Positions 28,083-59,394 of a stretch of DNA of 64,000 nucleotides are shown piece by piece. Each line of letters starts with the position of its first letter. The first letter of the stretch is position 1. Below the pieces are notes generated by a model. That model made no database searches, was not told the DNA's origin, and saw only the letters and a list, made by a program, of their open reading frames with translations. The DNA is taken from NCBI RefSeq assembly GCF_004337705.1, contig NZ_SKBU01000011.1, forward strand, positions 1-64,000, written 5' to 3'. Made by a program: the position numbers and the translations under genes. Origin of the DNA: Rubrobacter taiwanensis (GTDB lineage Bacteria; Actinomycetota; Rubrobacteria; Rubrobacterales; Rubrobacteraceae).

Positions 28083-28694
28083 GTGCGACGGAGCGCAGAG
28101 CACACTACCGCCGGCTTTCTGGAAGACCTGAAGCTGCGCCCGGTGGTGCCGGCAGTGCGCGGGAACGAGGCGGCTCTGGAGTCGGCTCTCGCCGGCGACT
28201 ACGCCGCCGTCTTCGTTCTGGGAGGCGATCCCTTCCGGCTCATAGAGCGCGCCGGCCGGCTTGCCCGCCGGCCCCGGATCTGCGTGAACCTGGACCTGGT
28301 CGGCGGAGTGGCGGCGGATGCCGCCGGCGTGCGGTTCCTGGCGCGCCATCTGGATGGCGTCATCTCCACCCACCGGCACATAATCGAGCTCGCCAGGTCC
28401 GCCGGGGTTATGACCATCCAGCGGCTCTTCGCCATAGATTCGGTCGCCGTGGAGCGGGGGCTGAGGCTCGTCAGGAAGACCGGCCCGGATCTGGTAGAGA
28501 TCCTGCCCGCCCTCGCCTACCCGGAGATAGCCTCCCGCTATCACGAGTCGCTCTCCCAGCCCGTGCTGGCCGGAGGGCTGCTGAAGGAGATCGGGTGCGT
28601 CCGGGAGATACTCGCCGCCGGCGCGGTCGGCGTTTCGACCAGCCACGAACCGCTCTGGCGCTTCACCCTTGACAAGAGAAGCCGTACCCGGTAG
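28083..28694 (+). CDS. glpP: Glycerol-responsive antiterminator GlpP
   Basis: A 203-residue cytoplasmic RNA-binding regulator of glycerol genes, with a TIM-barrel-like fold binding glycerol 3-phosphate. Family landmarks are VFVLGGDPFRLIERAGRLA, DLVGGVAADAAGVRFLA, GVISTHRHIIELARS, PDLVEILPALAYPEIAS, PVLAGGLLKEI and AVGVSTSHEPLW. It is well known in Bacillota and less expected in a high-G+C actinobacterium. It sits directly upstream of glpK, whose promoter overlaps its 3' end. In Bacillus, GlpP with glycerol 3-phosphate prevents termination in the glp leader; the same is inferred here. Confidence 0.88.
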   Translation: MRRSAEHTTAGFLEDLKLRPVVPAVRGNEAALESALAGDYAAVFVLGGDPFRLIERAGRLARRPRICVNLDLVGGVAADAAGVRFLARHLDGVISTHRHIIELARSAGVMTIQRLFAIDSVAVERGLRLVRKTGPDLVEILPALAYPEIASRYHESLSQPVLAGGLLKEIGCVREILAAGAVGVSTSHEPLWRFTLDKRSRTR

Positions 28695-28697
28695 TGT
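28669..28697 (+). promoter_or_regulatory. Promoter of the glpK-glpD operon
   Basis: TTGACA (28669-28674), a 17-base spacer and TAGTGT (28692-28697): a near-consensus vegetative promoter inside the last codons of glpP. The palindrome TTCAATTGAA (28697-28706) covers the expected transcription start, and an inverted repeat CGCAA-N6-TTGCG (28710-28725) follows. Either could be a protein operator. The transcript would have a leader of about 195 bases. Confidence 0.75.
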
Positions 28698-28748
28698 TCA
28701 ATTGAAAAACGCAATATAAGTTGCGCGGGCGTAGAGAGACGAGAGAGA

Positions 28749-28810
28749 GCCTCGCACGGAGCAGACAGGAGCTTTCCCGGCTTGGAGGAAGCCTCTTCTC
28801 CGTGCGGGGC
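28749..28810 (+). promoter_or_regulatory. Long stem-loop in the glpK leader, probable GlpP target
   Basis: GCCTCGCACGGAG (28749-28761) pairs with CTCCGTGCGGGGC (28798-28810), 13 pairs with one G-U. The loop holds a smaller hairpin GGCTT-GGAGG-AAGCC. No U-run follows (TTCGCGATT instead), so a simple intrinsic terminator is not obvious. With glpP next door, this is the best candidate for the antitermination or mRNA-stability site. Confidence 0.6.
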
Positions 28811-28898
28811 TTCGCGATTACAAGGGGGTGGTGTTACGGGGCTGGATCTGCTGCAGGGAAGGAGCTTCAAGAAGAGCAGAGGAGAAAGGACGGAGTGA

Positions 28899-30404
<1,506 letters not shown>

Positions 30405-30408
30405 GGCG

Positions 30409-31407
30409 ATGAAGAAGATCATCAACGCTCCGGAGGACGTGGTCCCGGAGCAGCTCCGGGGTATGGAGCTGGCACGCCCGGATCTGCTGCGGTACATGCC
30501 CGAGGCTAACGTGCTCGTGCGCGCCGACGCTCCGGTCGAGGGAAAGGTGGCGCTCGTCTCCGGCGGTGGCTCCGGCCACGAGCCGGCGCACGGCGGCTTC
30601 GTAGGTCCGGGGATGCTGGACGCCGCCTGCGCCGGGGCCGTCTTCACCAGCCCGACTCCGGACCAGATGCTGGAGGCGACCAAGGCTGTGGACGGCGGGG
30701 CCGGGGTGTTCTACGTGGTCAAGAACTACACCGGGGACGTGCTCAACTTCGAGATGGCCGGCGAGCTCGCCCAGGCCGAGGGCATTGAGACCGACTACGT
30801 CGTGGTCGACGACGACGTCGCGGTCGAAGACTCCACCTACACCAGCGGGCGGCGCGGCATCGCCGGGACCATCTTCGTGCACAAGATCGCCGGGGCGGCC
30901 GCTGAGGACGGGAAGGACCTGGCCGGGGTCAAGGAGATCGCGCAGAGAGTAAACGCCAATGTACGCAGCATGGGCATGGCGCTAACCAGCTGCATCCCGC
31001 CGGAGCGGGGCGAGCCCATCTTCGAGATCGCCGACGACGAGATGGAGATCGGGATGGGCATCCACGGCGAGCCCGGCACCGAACGCAAGAAGATAGAGCC
31101 TGCAAACAGCGTCGTGGACGAGCTGGCGGCTAAGGTTCTCGGCGACGACGTGGACTTCACGCAGGGAGAGGTGGCCGTAATGGTCAACGGGCTCGGCGGG
31201 ACCCCGGTCATGGAGCTCTATATTGCCTACGCGCACCTGGCGGATGTGCTCAAGCGCGAAGGCGTAAACGTCTACCGGTCGTTCGTCGGGGAGTACATGA
31301 CCTCGCTGGAGATGGCGGGCTTCTCCATCACGCTGCTCCGGCTGGACGACGAGATGAAGGGTTATCTGGACGCGCCCTGCCGGGTGGCCGCCGGCCGGCC
31401 GTTCTAG
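30409..31407 (+). CDS. dhaK: Dihydroxyacetone kinase subunit DhaK
   Basis: A 332-residue subunit that binds dihydroxyacetone covalently through a histidine. Recognisable segments are VSGGGSGHEPAHGGFVGPGM (about residues 50-69), AVFTSPTPDQMLEATKAVDG, and the hemiaminal histidine in MGIHGEPGTER near residue 220. It starts 4 bases after the glpK stop. Phosphoryl groups would come from DhaL-ADP recharged by DhaM, both encoded downstream. glpF separates dhaK from its partners, an unusual interleaving. Confidence 0.93.
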   Translation: MKKIINAPEDVVPEQLRGMELARPDLLRYMPEANVLVRADAPVEGKVALVSGGGSGHEPAHGGFVGPGMLDAACAGAVFTSPTPDQMLEATKAVDGGAGVFYVVKNYTGDVLNFEMAGELAQAEGIETDYVVVDDDVAVEDSTYTSGRRGIAGTIFVHKIAGAAAEDGKDLAGVKEIAQRVNANVRSMGMALTSCIPPERGEPIFEIADDEMEIGMGIHGEPGTERKKIEPANSVVDELAAKVLGDDVDFTQGEVAVMVNGLGGTPVMELYIAYAHLADVLKREGVNVYRSFVGEYMTSLEMAGFSITLLRLDDEMKGYLDAPCRVAAGRPF

Positions 31408-31488: not shown

Positions 31489-32241
31489 GTGGAGCTGTAC
31501 ATCGCCGAGTTCGTCGGCACGATGATCCTGGTTCTGCTCGGCGACGGGGTCGTCGCCGGCGTCCTGCTGCGCCGGTCCAAGGCGGAGAACGCGGGCTGGA
31601 TCGTCATAACCTTCGGGTGGGGAATGGCGGTCGCCATCGCCGTCTACACCGTCGGGCGCATCTCGGGGGCGCACATCAACCCGGCGGTCACGCTCGGGCT
31701 GGCGTCGGTGGGCGCGCACGACTGGGCGCTGGTGCCGGGCTACTGGATCGCCCAGATGCTCGGCGCTTTCACCGGGGCCGTGCTGGTCTTCCTGCACTAC
31801 CTGCCGCACTGGAGGGAGACCGAGGACCCGGATCTGAAGCTGGCCGTCTTCTCTACCGGTCCGGCCATTCGCAACCCGGTCACCAACTTCGTGGCCGAGG
31901 TCATCGGCACGGCCATGCTGCTCTTCGGCGTGCTCGGCATAAGCGCCAACGCCACCGAGATCGAGACCGCCGCGGACGTGGACCTCTCGGTCGTGTTCGC
32001 CACGGGCATCGCGCCGCTGCTCGTAGGGCTGCTGGTGCTCGTGATCGGGCTCTCGCTCGGCGGGCCCACGGGGTACGCCATCAATCCGGCGCGGGATCTG
32101 GGGCCGCGCATCGCCCACGCCATACTCCCGATACCCGGCAAGGGCGGATCGGACTGGGGATACTCCTGGATCCCGGTCGTCGCGCCGCTGGTCGGAGGTG
32201 TGATCGGAGCCGTGCTCTTCGAGCTTCTGATCGGGAGTTAG
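31489..32241 (+). CDS. glpF: Glycerol facilitator / aquaglyceroporin
   Basis: A 250-residue MIP-family channel with six helices and two half-helices. The NPA boxes are GAHINPAVTLG (about residue 63) and GYAINPARDLGPR (about residue 193). The second box followed by Arg-Asp matches the glycerol-permeable branch (GlpF D-loop). GTG 31489 follows AAAGGAG ribosome binding bases. It brings glycerol, and possibly dihydroxyacetone, in for the kinases on either side. Confidence 0.93.
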   Translation: MELYIAEFVGTMILVLLGDGVVAGVLLRRSKAENAGWIVITFGWGMAVAIAVYTVGRISGAHINPAVTLGLASVGAHDWALVPGYWIAQMLGAFTGAVLVFLHYLPHWRETEDPDLKLAVFSTGPAIRNPVTNFVAEVIGTAMLLFGVLGISANATEIETAADVDLSVVFATGIAPLLVGLLVLVIGLSLGGPTGYAINPARDLGPRIAHAILPIPGKGGSDWGYSWIPVVAPLVGGVIGAVLFELLIGS

Positions 32242-32324: not shown

Positions 32325-32954
32325 TTGAGCGCCACACAGAGCACACTCGAGATTGTGAGGCACATGGCCGCGGCGATGGAGGAGCACCGCCGGTATCTGA
32401 CGCAGCTCGATGCGGCCATCGGGGATGCCGACCACGGCACGAACATGCACCGGGGGTTCCAGGCCGCGCTGGAGCGCCTGAACGGTGCGGACCCGGACAC
32501 GCCCGCGGATGTCCTGAAGGCGGTCTCCATGGCGCTCATCAGCAAGGTCGGCGGCGCGGCCGGGCCGCTCTACGGTACGGCCTTCCTGCGCGCGGCGGGC
32601 GTATTGGGGGGAAAGGGCGAGCTCTCGGCCGCGGACCTTGCCGCGGCCTTGGAGGCCGCGCTGGAGGGGATCAAGCAGCGCGGGCGGGCGGAGGAGGGGC
32701 AGAAGACCATCGTGGATGCGCTCGCCCCGGCCGTGAGGGCCGCCCGCGAGGCAGCAGACGGCGGCGGGAGCCCCGAGGAGGTGCTGCGGAGCGCCGCGGA
32801 GGCGGCCCGGAAGGGAGCGGAAGCGACCGTGGAGATGGAGGCGAAGAAGGGCCGTGCCAGCTACTTGGGCAAGCGCTCTATCGGGCATCAGGACCCCGGA
32901 GCTACCTCCACCTATCTCCTGCTGGACGCTGCGGTGCGGGGGCTGGAGGGATAG
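32325..32954 (+). CDS. dhaL: Dihydroxyacetone kinase subunit DhaL
   Basis: A 209-residue ADP-binding subunit of PTS-dependent dihydroxyacetone kinase. The Mg-ADP aspartates are in LDAAIGDADHGTNMHRGF (about residues 29-46), followed by KVGGAAGPLYGTAFLRAA and GASYLGKRSIGHQDPGA-like C-terminal contacts. The start is TTG 32325 with GGAGGAG just upstream; the frame is open back to 31482 only as a shadow of glpF. The length is the family norm. Confidence 0.92.
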   Translation: MSATQSTLEIVRHMAAAMEEHRRYLTQLDAAIGDADHGTNMHRGFQAALERLNGADPDTPADVLKAVSMALISKVGGAAGPLYGTAFLRAAGVLGGKGELSAADLAAALEAALEGIKQRGRAEEGQKTIVDALAPAVRAAREAADGGGSPEEVLRSAAEAARKGAEATVEMEAKKGRASYLGKRSIGHQDPGATSTYLLLDAAVRGLEG

Positions 32955-32958
32955 TTTG

Positions 32959-33348
32959 GTGAGCTTGGTGCTCGTCTCGCACAGCCGCAAGATCGCCGAG
33001 GGCACCGCGGAGCTCGTGCGCCAGATGGCGGGCGAGGAGCTGAAGATCTCCGCCATCGGCGGGGACCCCGAGGGCGGTCTGGGCACCGATCCGGACGAGA
33101 TCCGGCGTGTCCTTGAGGATTCCGGGGGAGAAGACGTGCTGGTGTTCATGGACCTCGGCAGCGCCGTCATGTCGGCTGAGGCCGTGCGGGAGGAGCTTAA
33201 GCCGGAGCTGCGCGGGCGGGTGCACCTGGTGGACGCGCCCTTCGTGGAAGGGGCGTTCTCCGCCGGGGTTGCGGCTTCGGCGGGCTCCAGTGTTGAGGAG
33301 TGCATCGAGGCCGCAGCCGAGGCGAGGACCGAGTCGAAACTGCACTAG
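32959..33348 (+). CDS. dhaM: Dihydroxyacetone kinase phosphotransfer subunit DhaM (EIIA domain only)
   Basis: A 129-residue EIIA-mannose-like domain that passes phosphate from PTS HPr to DhaL-bound ADP. The active histidine is in LVLVSHSRKIAEG near residue 8, with FMDLGSAVMSAE further on. It lacks the fused HPr and EI-like domains of the E. coli protein, so it depends on separate PTS proteins. GTG 32959 is preferred over TTG 32956 on ribosome-binding-site spacing (GGAGGG, 8 bases). It starts 4 bases after the dhaL stop. Confidence 0.88.
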   Translation: MSLVLVSHSRKIAEGTAELVRQMAGEELKISAIGGDPEGGLGTDPDEIRRVLEDSGGEDVLVFMDLGSAVMSAEAVREELKPELRGRVHLVDAPFVEGAFSAGVAASAGSSVEECIEAAAEARTESKLH

Positions 33349-33364
33349 AAAGGCGCGTTCAGGT

Positions 33365-35044
33365 ATGAGCAGGCAGATTCCGCAGGGGATAGAAGGTTAC
33401 GGGTTCGATCTCATCGTCGTGGGTGCGGGCATCAACGGCGCGGGGATAGCGCGAGACGCGGCCATGCGCGGCCTCAAGACCCTGCTGCTGGATAAGGGCG
33501 ACGTCTCCAGCGGCACCACGATGTGGTCCACGCGGCTGATCCACGGCGGCCTGCGCTATCTGGAGTACTTCGAGGTCTCCCTGGTGCGCGAGTCGCTTAA
33601 AGAGAGGGAGATCCTGCTGCGCGTGGCTCCGCACCTGGTTCATCCGCTGCCGTTCTTTATCCCGGTCTACGAGGGAGACCGGTGGGGGCCGTCCATCGCC
33701 TTCGAATACGGGCCTGCCTCCCTGCTTCAGAGGCACAACCTGCTTCTGGTCAGGCTCGGGATGATCGCCTACGACATCCTCTCTTACGACAAGAGCCTCG
33801 AGAGCCACCGGATGTTCGGTCGGGAGGAGGCGCTGGCGTACATGCCCGGCGTCAATCCGGAGGGCCTCCGGGGCGCCGCCCGCTACTTCGATGCCCAGGT
33901 GGAGTTTCCGGAACGGCTGACGGTCGAGAACGCCGTCTCCGCCCGGGAGCACGGGGCTGTGGTCATCCCGTACGCCCGTGTGGACGGGTTTTTGCGCGAG
34001 GGCGACCGGATAAGGGGCGTCGAGTTTGTAGATGTCCTTAGCGGCGGTCGGCACACCGCCCGGGCTCCGGTCGTGGTGAACGTGGCCGGGCCGTGGGTAG
34101 ATGAGGTGCTGCTGGGGCTGGACCGGCCCTCGCCGCGCCTCATCGGAGGTACGAAGGGGAGCCACATCGTGGTCGAGGCTTTCCCCGGAGCTCCCAGAGA
34201 GGCCATCTACGTCCGGGCCACCGACGGCAGGCCGTACTTCATCGTGCCCTGGAACGGGCGGTACCTCATCGGTACCACCGACATCCACTACGAGGGAGAT
34301 CTCGACCACGTGGTCGCCGGCGACGAAGAGATAGACTACCTCATCGGGGAGACGAACCGGGTCATACCCGCGGCCGGCCTTGCGCGCGGGGACGTCCTCT
34401 ACGCCTACGCCGGGGTGCGGCCGCTGCCCTACGAGCCCGGGAAGTCCGCCGGACAGATCACCCGCAGCCACATCATCCGCGACTACGCCCCGGAGCTGGA
34501 GGGGCTGATCTCGATCGTGGGCGGCAAGATTACCACCTACCGCAACCTCGCCCGGGAGACGGTAGATATGGTGCTCAAGAAGCTCGGACGCCCCGATCCC
34601 GGCTGCCGCACGCAGGACGTTCCCCTGCCCGGGGGCGGCGAAGATTTCGAGGGTTTCGCCGCGGACTTCAAGGCCGGCAGTGGTCTCGGTGAGTCTCTGG
34701 CCTCCCGGCTGCTGCGGATCTACGGCGTGCGCGCCCCGGAGGTGCTCGCCCTCTCCGAGGGGGAGCCGGATCTGCGGATGCCGCTGGCCCCCGACTCCGA
34801 CGTCATCGGGGCGGAGGTCCTCTTCGCCTTCCTGAGCGAGCTGGCCAGCTCGCTCACGGACTTCATGATGCGACGTTCGATGGCCGGCTACGACTCGCAC
34901 GTGGGGCTGGGCGTGGACCGCGCGGCCGCGGAGATCGCCGGGAGATATCTCGACTGGGACGGAGAGCGGATCGAGAGGGAGGTGCGCGAATACCGCGAGT
35001 ACGTCCGGCGCTTCCGGCCGCGAACCGAGATCCCCGCCGCCTGA
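33365..35044 (+). CDS. glpD: Aerobic glycerol-3-phosphate dehydrogenase
   Basis: A 559-residue FAD enzyme at the membrane that oxidises glycerol 3-phosphate to dihydroxyacetone phosphate and feeds the quinone pool. The FAD-binding GxGxxG is LIVVGAGINGAGIARDAAMRG (about residues 17-37), followed by TTMWSTRLIHGGLRYLEY, FIVPWNGRYLIGTTD and SIVGGKITTYRNLA. ATG 33365 has weak ribosome binding bases; the longer frame to 33107 is a shadow of dhaM. It completes the operon. Confidence 0.94.
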   Translation: MSRQIPQGIEGYGFDLIVVGAGINGAGIARDAAMRGLKTLLLDKGDVSSGTTMWSTRLIHGGLRYLEYFEVSLVRESLKEREILLRVAPHLVHPLPFFIPVYEGDRWGPSIAFEYGPASLLQRHNLLLVRLGMIAYDILSYDKSLESHRMFGREEALAYMPGVNPEGLRGAARYFDAQVEFPERLTVENAVSAREHGAVVIPYARVDGFLREGDRIRGVEFVDVLSGGRHTARAPVVVNVAGPWVDEVLLGLDRPSPRLIGGTKGSHIVVEAFPGAPREAIYVRATDGRPYFIVPWNGRYLIGTTDIHYEGDLDHVVAGDEEIDYLIGETNRVIPAAGLARGDVLYAYAGVRPLPYEPGKSAGQITRSHIIRDYAPELEGLISIVGGKITTYRNLARETVDMVLKKLGRPDPGCRTQDVPLPGGGEDFEGFAADFKAGSGLGESLASRLLRIYGVRAPEVLALSEGEPDLRMPLAPDSDVIGAEVLFAFLSELASSLTDFMMRRSMAGYDSHVGLGVDRAAAEIAGRYLDWDGERIEREVREYREYVRRFRPRTEIPAA

Positions 35045-59238: not shown

Positions 59239-59255
59239 CCCCATCAACGCGGACT

Positions 59256-59359
59256 CGCATCGAGAGCGGTGGAGGGAACTGGCCCAGTGAAGCCGCGGCA
59301 ACCGGCGGCAGGACCGCGAGGTGCCAATTCCAGCGGGACCCGAGGTCCCGGAAGATGTG
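59256..59359 (+). promoter_or_regulatory. SAM-I riboswitch aptamer (S-box)
   Basis: About 104 bases with the S-box consensus in order: CGAGAGCGGTGGAGGGAACT, GGCCCAGTGAAGCCGCGGCA, ACC, GGTGCCAATTCCAGCGGGA and GGAAGATG. The P1 helix is CGCATC (59256-59261) with GATGTG (59354-59359). It binds S-adenosylmethionine and should switch off the metX-metY-ask-hom transcript when SAM is plentiful. The recognition of the aptamer is firm from conserved sequence alone. Confidence 0.95.
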
Positions 59360-59394
59360 GGGGAGCGCGTGCAGGCCCGGTCTCCCGGTGTCAT

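Follow-up and report, generated by a model that had tools for sequence, protein, structure and literature searches.

The glycerol locus of Rubrobacter taiwanensis

We analyzed a window of 64,000 nucleotides, this being the whole stretch of DNA under study, from a draft genome of 3.03 Mb in 57 contigs that belongs to the class Rubrobacteria. At the locus of interest the gene order is FMN reductase-like, iron alcohol dehydrogenase, glyoxalase-like, glpP, a leader region, glpK, dhaK, glpF, a dhaM-type gene, and glpD. The genes from glpP onward are as follows.

28083..28694, + strand: glpP, glycerol-3-phosphate responsive antiterminator protein, 203 aa (PF04309)
28899..30404, + strand: glpK, glycerol kinase, first gene of the operon (TIGR01311, 714 bits against a cut-off of 590)
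30409..31407, + strand: dhaK, dihydroxyacetone kinase subunit (PF02733; TIGR02363 over cut-off)
31489..32241, + strand: glpF-like glycerol facilitator, MIP family (PF00230; TIGR00861 over cut-off)
32854..33348, + strand: dhaM-type phosphoryl donor subunit within the glpK gene run (TIGR02364 over cut-off)
33107..35044, + strand: glpD, glycerol-3-phosphate dehydrogenase (top NCBIfam match NF008899, 342 bits, slightly below the cut-off of 360), the true start probably lying near 33359

The GlpP protein matched PF04309 over positions 1-173 of 173 with an E-value of 7.1e-45 and 153 bits against a cut-off of 27, and it is kin to the solved GlpP-type proteins PDB 3kts (6.5e-23) and 1vkf (1.4e-14). 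As an earlier note on this DNA had stated, glpP adjoins glycerol genes: it ends at 28694, and the glpK operon follows directly downstream. In B. subtilis, glycerol-3-phosphate-bound GlpP brings about antitermination and also stabilizes the glpD mRNA (PMC9604022, PMC7430163). Elsewhere in the window, a SAM riboswitch is present at 59254-59361 (RF00162, 91.8 bits).

Anatomy of the glpK leader

The region between glpP and glpK, together with the end of glpP, contains the following elements.

28669..28697, + strand: glpK-operon promoter (-35 TTGACA, 17-nt spacer, -10 TAGTGT)
28697..28725, + strand: two palindromes, TTCAATTGAA at 28697-28706 and CGCAATATAAGTTGCG at 28710-28725
28722..28756, + strand: antiterminator hairpin, 8 bp with a 1-nt bulge, -9.3 kcal/mol
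28734..28747, + strand: purine box GAGAGACGAGAGAG in the antiterminator loop, candidate GlpP-binding site, consensus GAGA-n2-6-RGAG
28747..28812, + strand: terminator-like hairpin with a variable inner hairpin, -40.4 kcal/mol, followed by the U-poor tail CGCGATT
28822..28831, + strand: Shine-Dalgarno-like sequence AAGGGGGTGG after the hairpin, about 70 nt before glpK and not the glpK ribosome-binding site

The promoter had been described as near-consensus, which holds for the -35 hexamer (28669-28674), a consensus sequence, but not for the -10 hexamer (28692-28697), which matches at three of six positions and for that reason was missing from the list of an automatic scan. The -10 hexamer lies over the glpP stop codon, an overlap shared by the window leader and seven others, and the pattern TTGAN + 17 nt + TAnnnT was found in 20/20 Rubrobacteria leaders.

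The terminator-like stem comprises 15 contiguous pairs, 28747-28761 with 28798-28812. Thus, the earlier description of a stem without a U-run was right in both respects, and its count of 13 pairs is replaced by 15. With three T per eight nucleotides, the window tail TTCGCGAT contains no U-run. Across the Rubrobacteria leaders, the T count in the 8 nt past the stem ranges from 2 to 7 and the tails from UCUCG up to UUUUU; that of L008 reads TCTTCCCT, and U-runs are present in L005, L010, L012, L018, and L019. Because close relatives with the same element possess a U-run, we did not treat it as a defining criterion. Other terminator-like hairpins of the same genome have weak or absent U-runs, for example GAGAGAGCCCCCGCGGGGGCTCTCTT between convergent genes, and some have U-runs, these genome-wide statistics being coarse because convergent pairs were few and the gene caller was home-made. 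For mycobacteria, a predominance of Rho-dependent ends and a helping role of NusG at suboptimal terminators are described, and the requirement for a U-tract is disputed (PMC12288462). Taken together with the U-poor hairpins elsewhere in the genome, this literature indicates that the tail is ordinary for the lineage. Since Rubrobacteria tails vary as well, the U-poor tail is no break with the family of GlpP leaders.

The purine box and the antiterminator arms at 28722-28756 were absent from the first reading of the sequence. The nucleotides UGCG-(C)-GGGC (28722-28730), immediately 5′ of the box, base-pair with GCCUCGCA (28749-28756) in the terminator 5′ arm. The resulting hairpin carries the purine box as its loop and is an alternative to the terminator. 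When the 5′ part of each leader was considered, stopping before the terminator 3′ arm, GCGNRGGC paired with the terminator 5′ arm GCCYCGC in 20/20 leaders. Every nascent leader exceeded its own upstream-shuffled control, with a mean of 8.7 expected pairs versus 6.2 after shuffling. Swapping arms within Rubrobacteria gave only modest support for covariation (11/1000), because there is hardly any variation in the core (GGC/GCC, GCG/CGC). For the leader as a whole, the folding energy was unremarkable (z -0.95) and, not being significant, was rejected as evidence for the element; the case for the leader therefore rests on conservation.

A GGAGG-like motif occurs 9-12 nt past the hairpin in 11/20 leaders. 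The form GGAGGTG is present between hairpin and glpK in the window and in L002-L009, L011, L013, L016, L017, and L020, and also in the GlpP-negative loci L163, L166, L168, L170, and L172, where it survives the loss of glpP and hairpin. It lies 64-91 nt ahead of the glpK start where measured, separate from the glpK ribosome-binding site, and is possibly an mRNA-stabilizing ribosome site. We discarded the idea that a leader peptide begins at the Shine-Dalgarno-like motif: by eye, the reading frames of the relatives differ in length and content, with no sign of coding.

Conservation in Rubrobacteria and natural loss of GlpP

The comparison set consisted of 40 genomes of the class Rubrobacteria, all of one family; the named relatives recovered via GlpP are Rubrobacter species, among them R. 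marinus, whose locus L031 carries the element. PF04309 is present in 20/40 genomes, and in all 20 the element directly follows glpP. The shared module consists of the promoter TTGAN-N17-TAnnnT, a leader of 37-47 nt, the segments TGCGNAGGC and GYAGAGANNNAGAGA, the terminator arms GCCYCGCRCGG ... CCGYGCGGGGC, and UYU, with the purine box in the form GAGA-n-GAGA. In the terminator alignment, 98.1% of the cells of the 14 stem pairs are paired, five pairs show double changes, and 0/500 shuffles reached the observed covariation score. An alignment of leaders from related species, suggested earlier as a check, thus recovered the promoter, the box, and a compensating terminator stem in all 20 GlpP-positive Rubrobacteria.

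Most genomes have glpK next after the leader; L015 has a glpD-like gene there, and L010 and L019 have a different FGGY kinase. Second copies of the element precede an unlinked glpK (L133) and a pentulose-kinase-like FGGY gene (L137), as expected of a regulator that acts in trans. A second candidate in the genome of the window (G000:C6:240648, E 2e-4) lies inside a short-chain dehydrogenase gene and was discarded as a false positive.

Two side observations concern these copies. The FGGY kinases preceded by the element in L137 (G039:C28), L010, and L019 are closer to pentulose kinases than to GlpK, and in L137 the element has a divergently oriented SorC-type sugar-binding regulator as its neighbor; at these loci, GlpP may act on a pathway for some other polyol or a sugar. 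Just upstream of the glpK leader in L133 (genome G012, 1558-1761) lies a partial glpP-like stretch with 52% identity over residues 37-105, an apparent case of duplication and decay; the full-length glpP of G012 is located elsewhere, beside a glpD-like gene.

The presence of the element tracks glpP: it was found in 20/20 genomes with GlpP, which match by construction since our Rubrobacteria model R1 was built from their leaders, versus 1/20 genomes without. The single strong element among the latter, in G013, stands before glpK (L136, G013:C309). GlpP was not found in this draft of 350 contigs, which reflects either an assembly gap or a very recent loss. We found glpK in 14 GlpP-negative genomes and could read the upstream region in 12. 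All 12 loci keep a TTGAC-type promoter, and box and terminator are absent or eroded, with element remnants in L159, L162, and L163. The genus g12 contains both conditions. Its GlpP-positive members (L007, L013, L017, L020) have a divergent glyoxalase gene, glpP, the leader, and glpK; the GlpP-negative ones (L159-L162) have the divergent glyoxalase gene, the promoter, and glpK, with glpP gone from the syntenic site, where the contig is continuous, although a draft assembly could hide glpP elsewhere. Because the terminator is lost together with the protein that would relieve it, these genomes provide strong evidence from comparative data that the hairpin would block glpK unless GlpP acts.

The element in Bacillota and in a second family of Actinomycetota

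A genome scan with the GlpP alignment yielded 70 loci besides ten from Rubrobacteria, nearly all of them Bacillota by title. Many Bacillota leaders show the same order of arm, GAGA-n-RGAG box, terminator, and U-run. In the glpF, glpK, glpD, and glpP leaders of Bacillota, which share this layout, the arms covary. A covariance model of the Bacillota antiterminator was dropped because the spacing of the arms varies and MAFFT failed to align them; an arm-swap test replaced it. For 65 copies (54 non-redundant), the mean arm-matching score was 10.3 or 9.8 versus approximately 7.3 after swapping, a value not matched in any of 1000 trials (0/1000); the copy list is regex-based, and a few possible chance matches would only weaken the signal. 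Examples of arm pairs are CGATAC/GTATCG (L101), AATGTG/CACATT (L098), and TAGGAC/GTCCTA (L060).

Copies outside Rubrobacteria precede glpK, glpF, genes for FAD-dependent GlpA/GlpD-type dehydrogenases, and glpP itself. The model trained on Rubrobacteria scored copies ahead of glpD-like genes in L040 and L032. Conversely, when the layout derived from Bacillota was applied to 454 kb of the genome that contains the window, it gave 70 candidates, among which the window leader ranked first. In some Clostridia the element stands ahead of glpP itself (L049 5933, L066 5813), which suggests that glpP is autoregulated there.

GlpP is also present in a second Actinomycetota family with genomes of 1.3-1.9 Mb, in which the element was found at three loci (L174, L176, L177). 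The elements of L174 and L177 have a clear U-run (GTTGGCTGAGAAACAGAGGTCCAAC...). The purine box is thus conserved in Rubrobacteria, in many Bacillota glp leaders, and in one other family of Actinomycetota. No relevant Rfam match to the leader was obtained, either for the window or for nine leader-bearing loci from the GlpP scan. We found no earlier description of the box and antiterminator consensus in the open-access subset of the literature; subscription journals may hold one.

Proposed mechanism and alternatives

The earlier note had proposed GlpP-type leader control of glycerol genes in this high-G+C genome. Our computations, namely the 20/20 conservation, two helices that are both conserved and covarying, the same layout in Bacillota, and the joint loss of glpP and terminator, bear this out. 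We consider it highly probable, on comparative sequence grounds, that this leader controls the glpK operon by transcription attenuation in response to GlpP; the switch is most likely worked by the neighboring GlpP protein. The conserved promoter would initiate transcription near 28704. When glycerol is absent, the long G+C-rich terminator (28747-28812) would form in the RNA, and most transcripts would end before glpK. With glycerol, GlpP made from the upstream gene and bound to glycerol-3-phosphate would grip the GAGA-n-GAGA box and stabilize the alternative hairpin at 28722-28756. Capture of the terminator 5′ arm would then let the polymerase read into glpK-dhaK-glpF-...-glpD. We infer that GlpP contacts the purine box, that glycerol-3-phosphate is the ligand in this species, and that release at the U-poor end is intrinsic and probably helped by NusG.

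The strongest competitor, which we nevertheless rate as unlikely, is Rho-dependent attenuation. Here the hairpin would be mainly a pause or processing structure, Rho would release the polymerase within the untranslated leader, and GlpP would block Rho or the pause. In its favor, the window tail and the tails of roughly half the Rubrobacteria copies are U-poor, and in mycobacteria, which are likewise high-G+C actinomycetes, Rho-dependent termination reportedly predominates (PMC12288462). However, the leader ahead of the hairpin is purine-rich, with its GAGA repeats, unlike the C-rich RNA described for Rho in that review (PMC12288462). Moreover, conserved, mutually exclusive hairpins are a requirement of an intrinsic attenuator, and some relatives carry real U-runs at the same site (L005, L018, L019).

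Considerably less probable is an action of GlpP mainly on mRNA stability or translation instead of termination. It would fit the reported stabilization of glpD mRNA by B. subtilis GlpP (PMC7430163) and the Shine-Dalgarno-like GGAGG after the hairpin in many leaders. Yet the end of the hairpin is 86 nt away from glpK, whose ribosome-binding site is left uncovered, the Shine-Dalgarno-like motif is kept in GlpP-negative relatives without the hairpin, and what the antiterminator arm sequesters is specifically the 5′ arm of the terminator. A special route by Rho or stability alone, which the earlier note had invoked for the missing U-run, is not needed: the leader has a standard terminator/antiterminator anatomy, some copies have U-runs, and other hairpins of the genome are U-poor.

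We give very little credence to the view that the hairpin, lying just past glpP, merely terminates the glpP transcript and leaves glpK constitutive, since the glpK promoter is upstream of the hairpin, which places it inside the glpK leader, the element also precedes a glpK that has no intact glpP beside it (L133) as well as other kinases (L137), and box and antiterminator arm are conserved. Equally improbable is regulation at the DNA level by a repressor at the start-site palindromes, both of which exist as described earlier: TTCAATTGAA overlaps the -10/start region and occurs once within 454 kb of the genome, but it is found in 0/19 other Rubrobacteria leaders, and CGCAATATAAGTTGCG is broken in most of them, its 3′ half being the conserved antiterminator arm, so that the additional regulator hinted at by these dyads is unsupported.

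Relation to known systems and implications

The proposed attenuator resembles GlpP and the glpD/glpFK/glpT leaders of B. subtilis in its succession of promoter, GlpP site, and terminator within the 5′ UTR that precedes glycerol genes (PMC9604022); in the Bacillales relatives that we examined, the box and the mutually exclusive hairpins are as in the Rubrobacteria leader. It differs in its G+C-rich stem, its U-poor tail, the glpK promoter over the glpP stop codon, and the single leader serving the glpK-dhaK-glpF-...-glpD run. As with LicT, SacY, and GlcT of the BglG family, a protein would stabilize an antiterminator hairpin that overlaps the terminator 5′ arm, but GlpP (PF04309) belongs to an unrelated family and its predicted RNA target is a GAGA box in a loop. 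TRAP and HutP likewise combine purine triplet repeats (GAG/NAG) in a leader with a metabolite-bound protein (PMC7430163); here there are only two boxes, in a short antiterminator loop, and the protein is unrelated. The strong G+C-rich hairpin without a U-run is reminiscent of the U-poor "I-shaped" terminators of mycobacteria, also from a high-G+C actinomycete (PMC12288462), from which it differs in being a regulated, putative leader terminator.

According to a comparative study of Thermotogales, comparative genomics had not been applied to the GlpP regulon (PMC3750489). Our results offer a concrete model of the GlpP target, a specific antiterminator with a purine box in its loop, and would extend GlpP attenuation to the Actinomycetota. 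The leader copies could seed an RNA-family model for annotation of the GlpP regulon. In addition, the natural losses of glpP amount to a genetic experiment on termination at U-poor hairpins in a high-G+C actinomycete, a process disputed in mycobacteria. More tentatively, and with the balance leaning against it, the GlpP target may be one ancient, uncatalogued RNA family of Bacillota and at least two lineages of Actinomycetota, which in Rubrobacteria controls U-independent or Rho/NusG-assisted termination. If this single-family reading is true, the Rubrobacteria would possess a regulated form of antitermination that does not depend on a U-run terminator.
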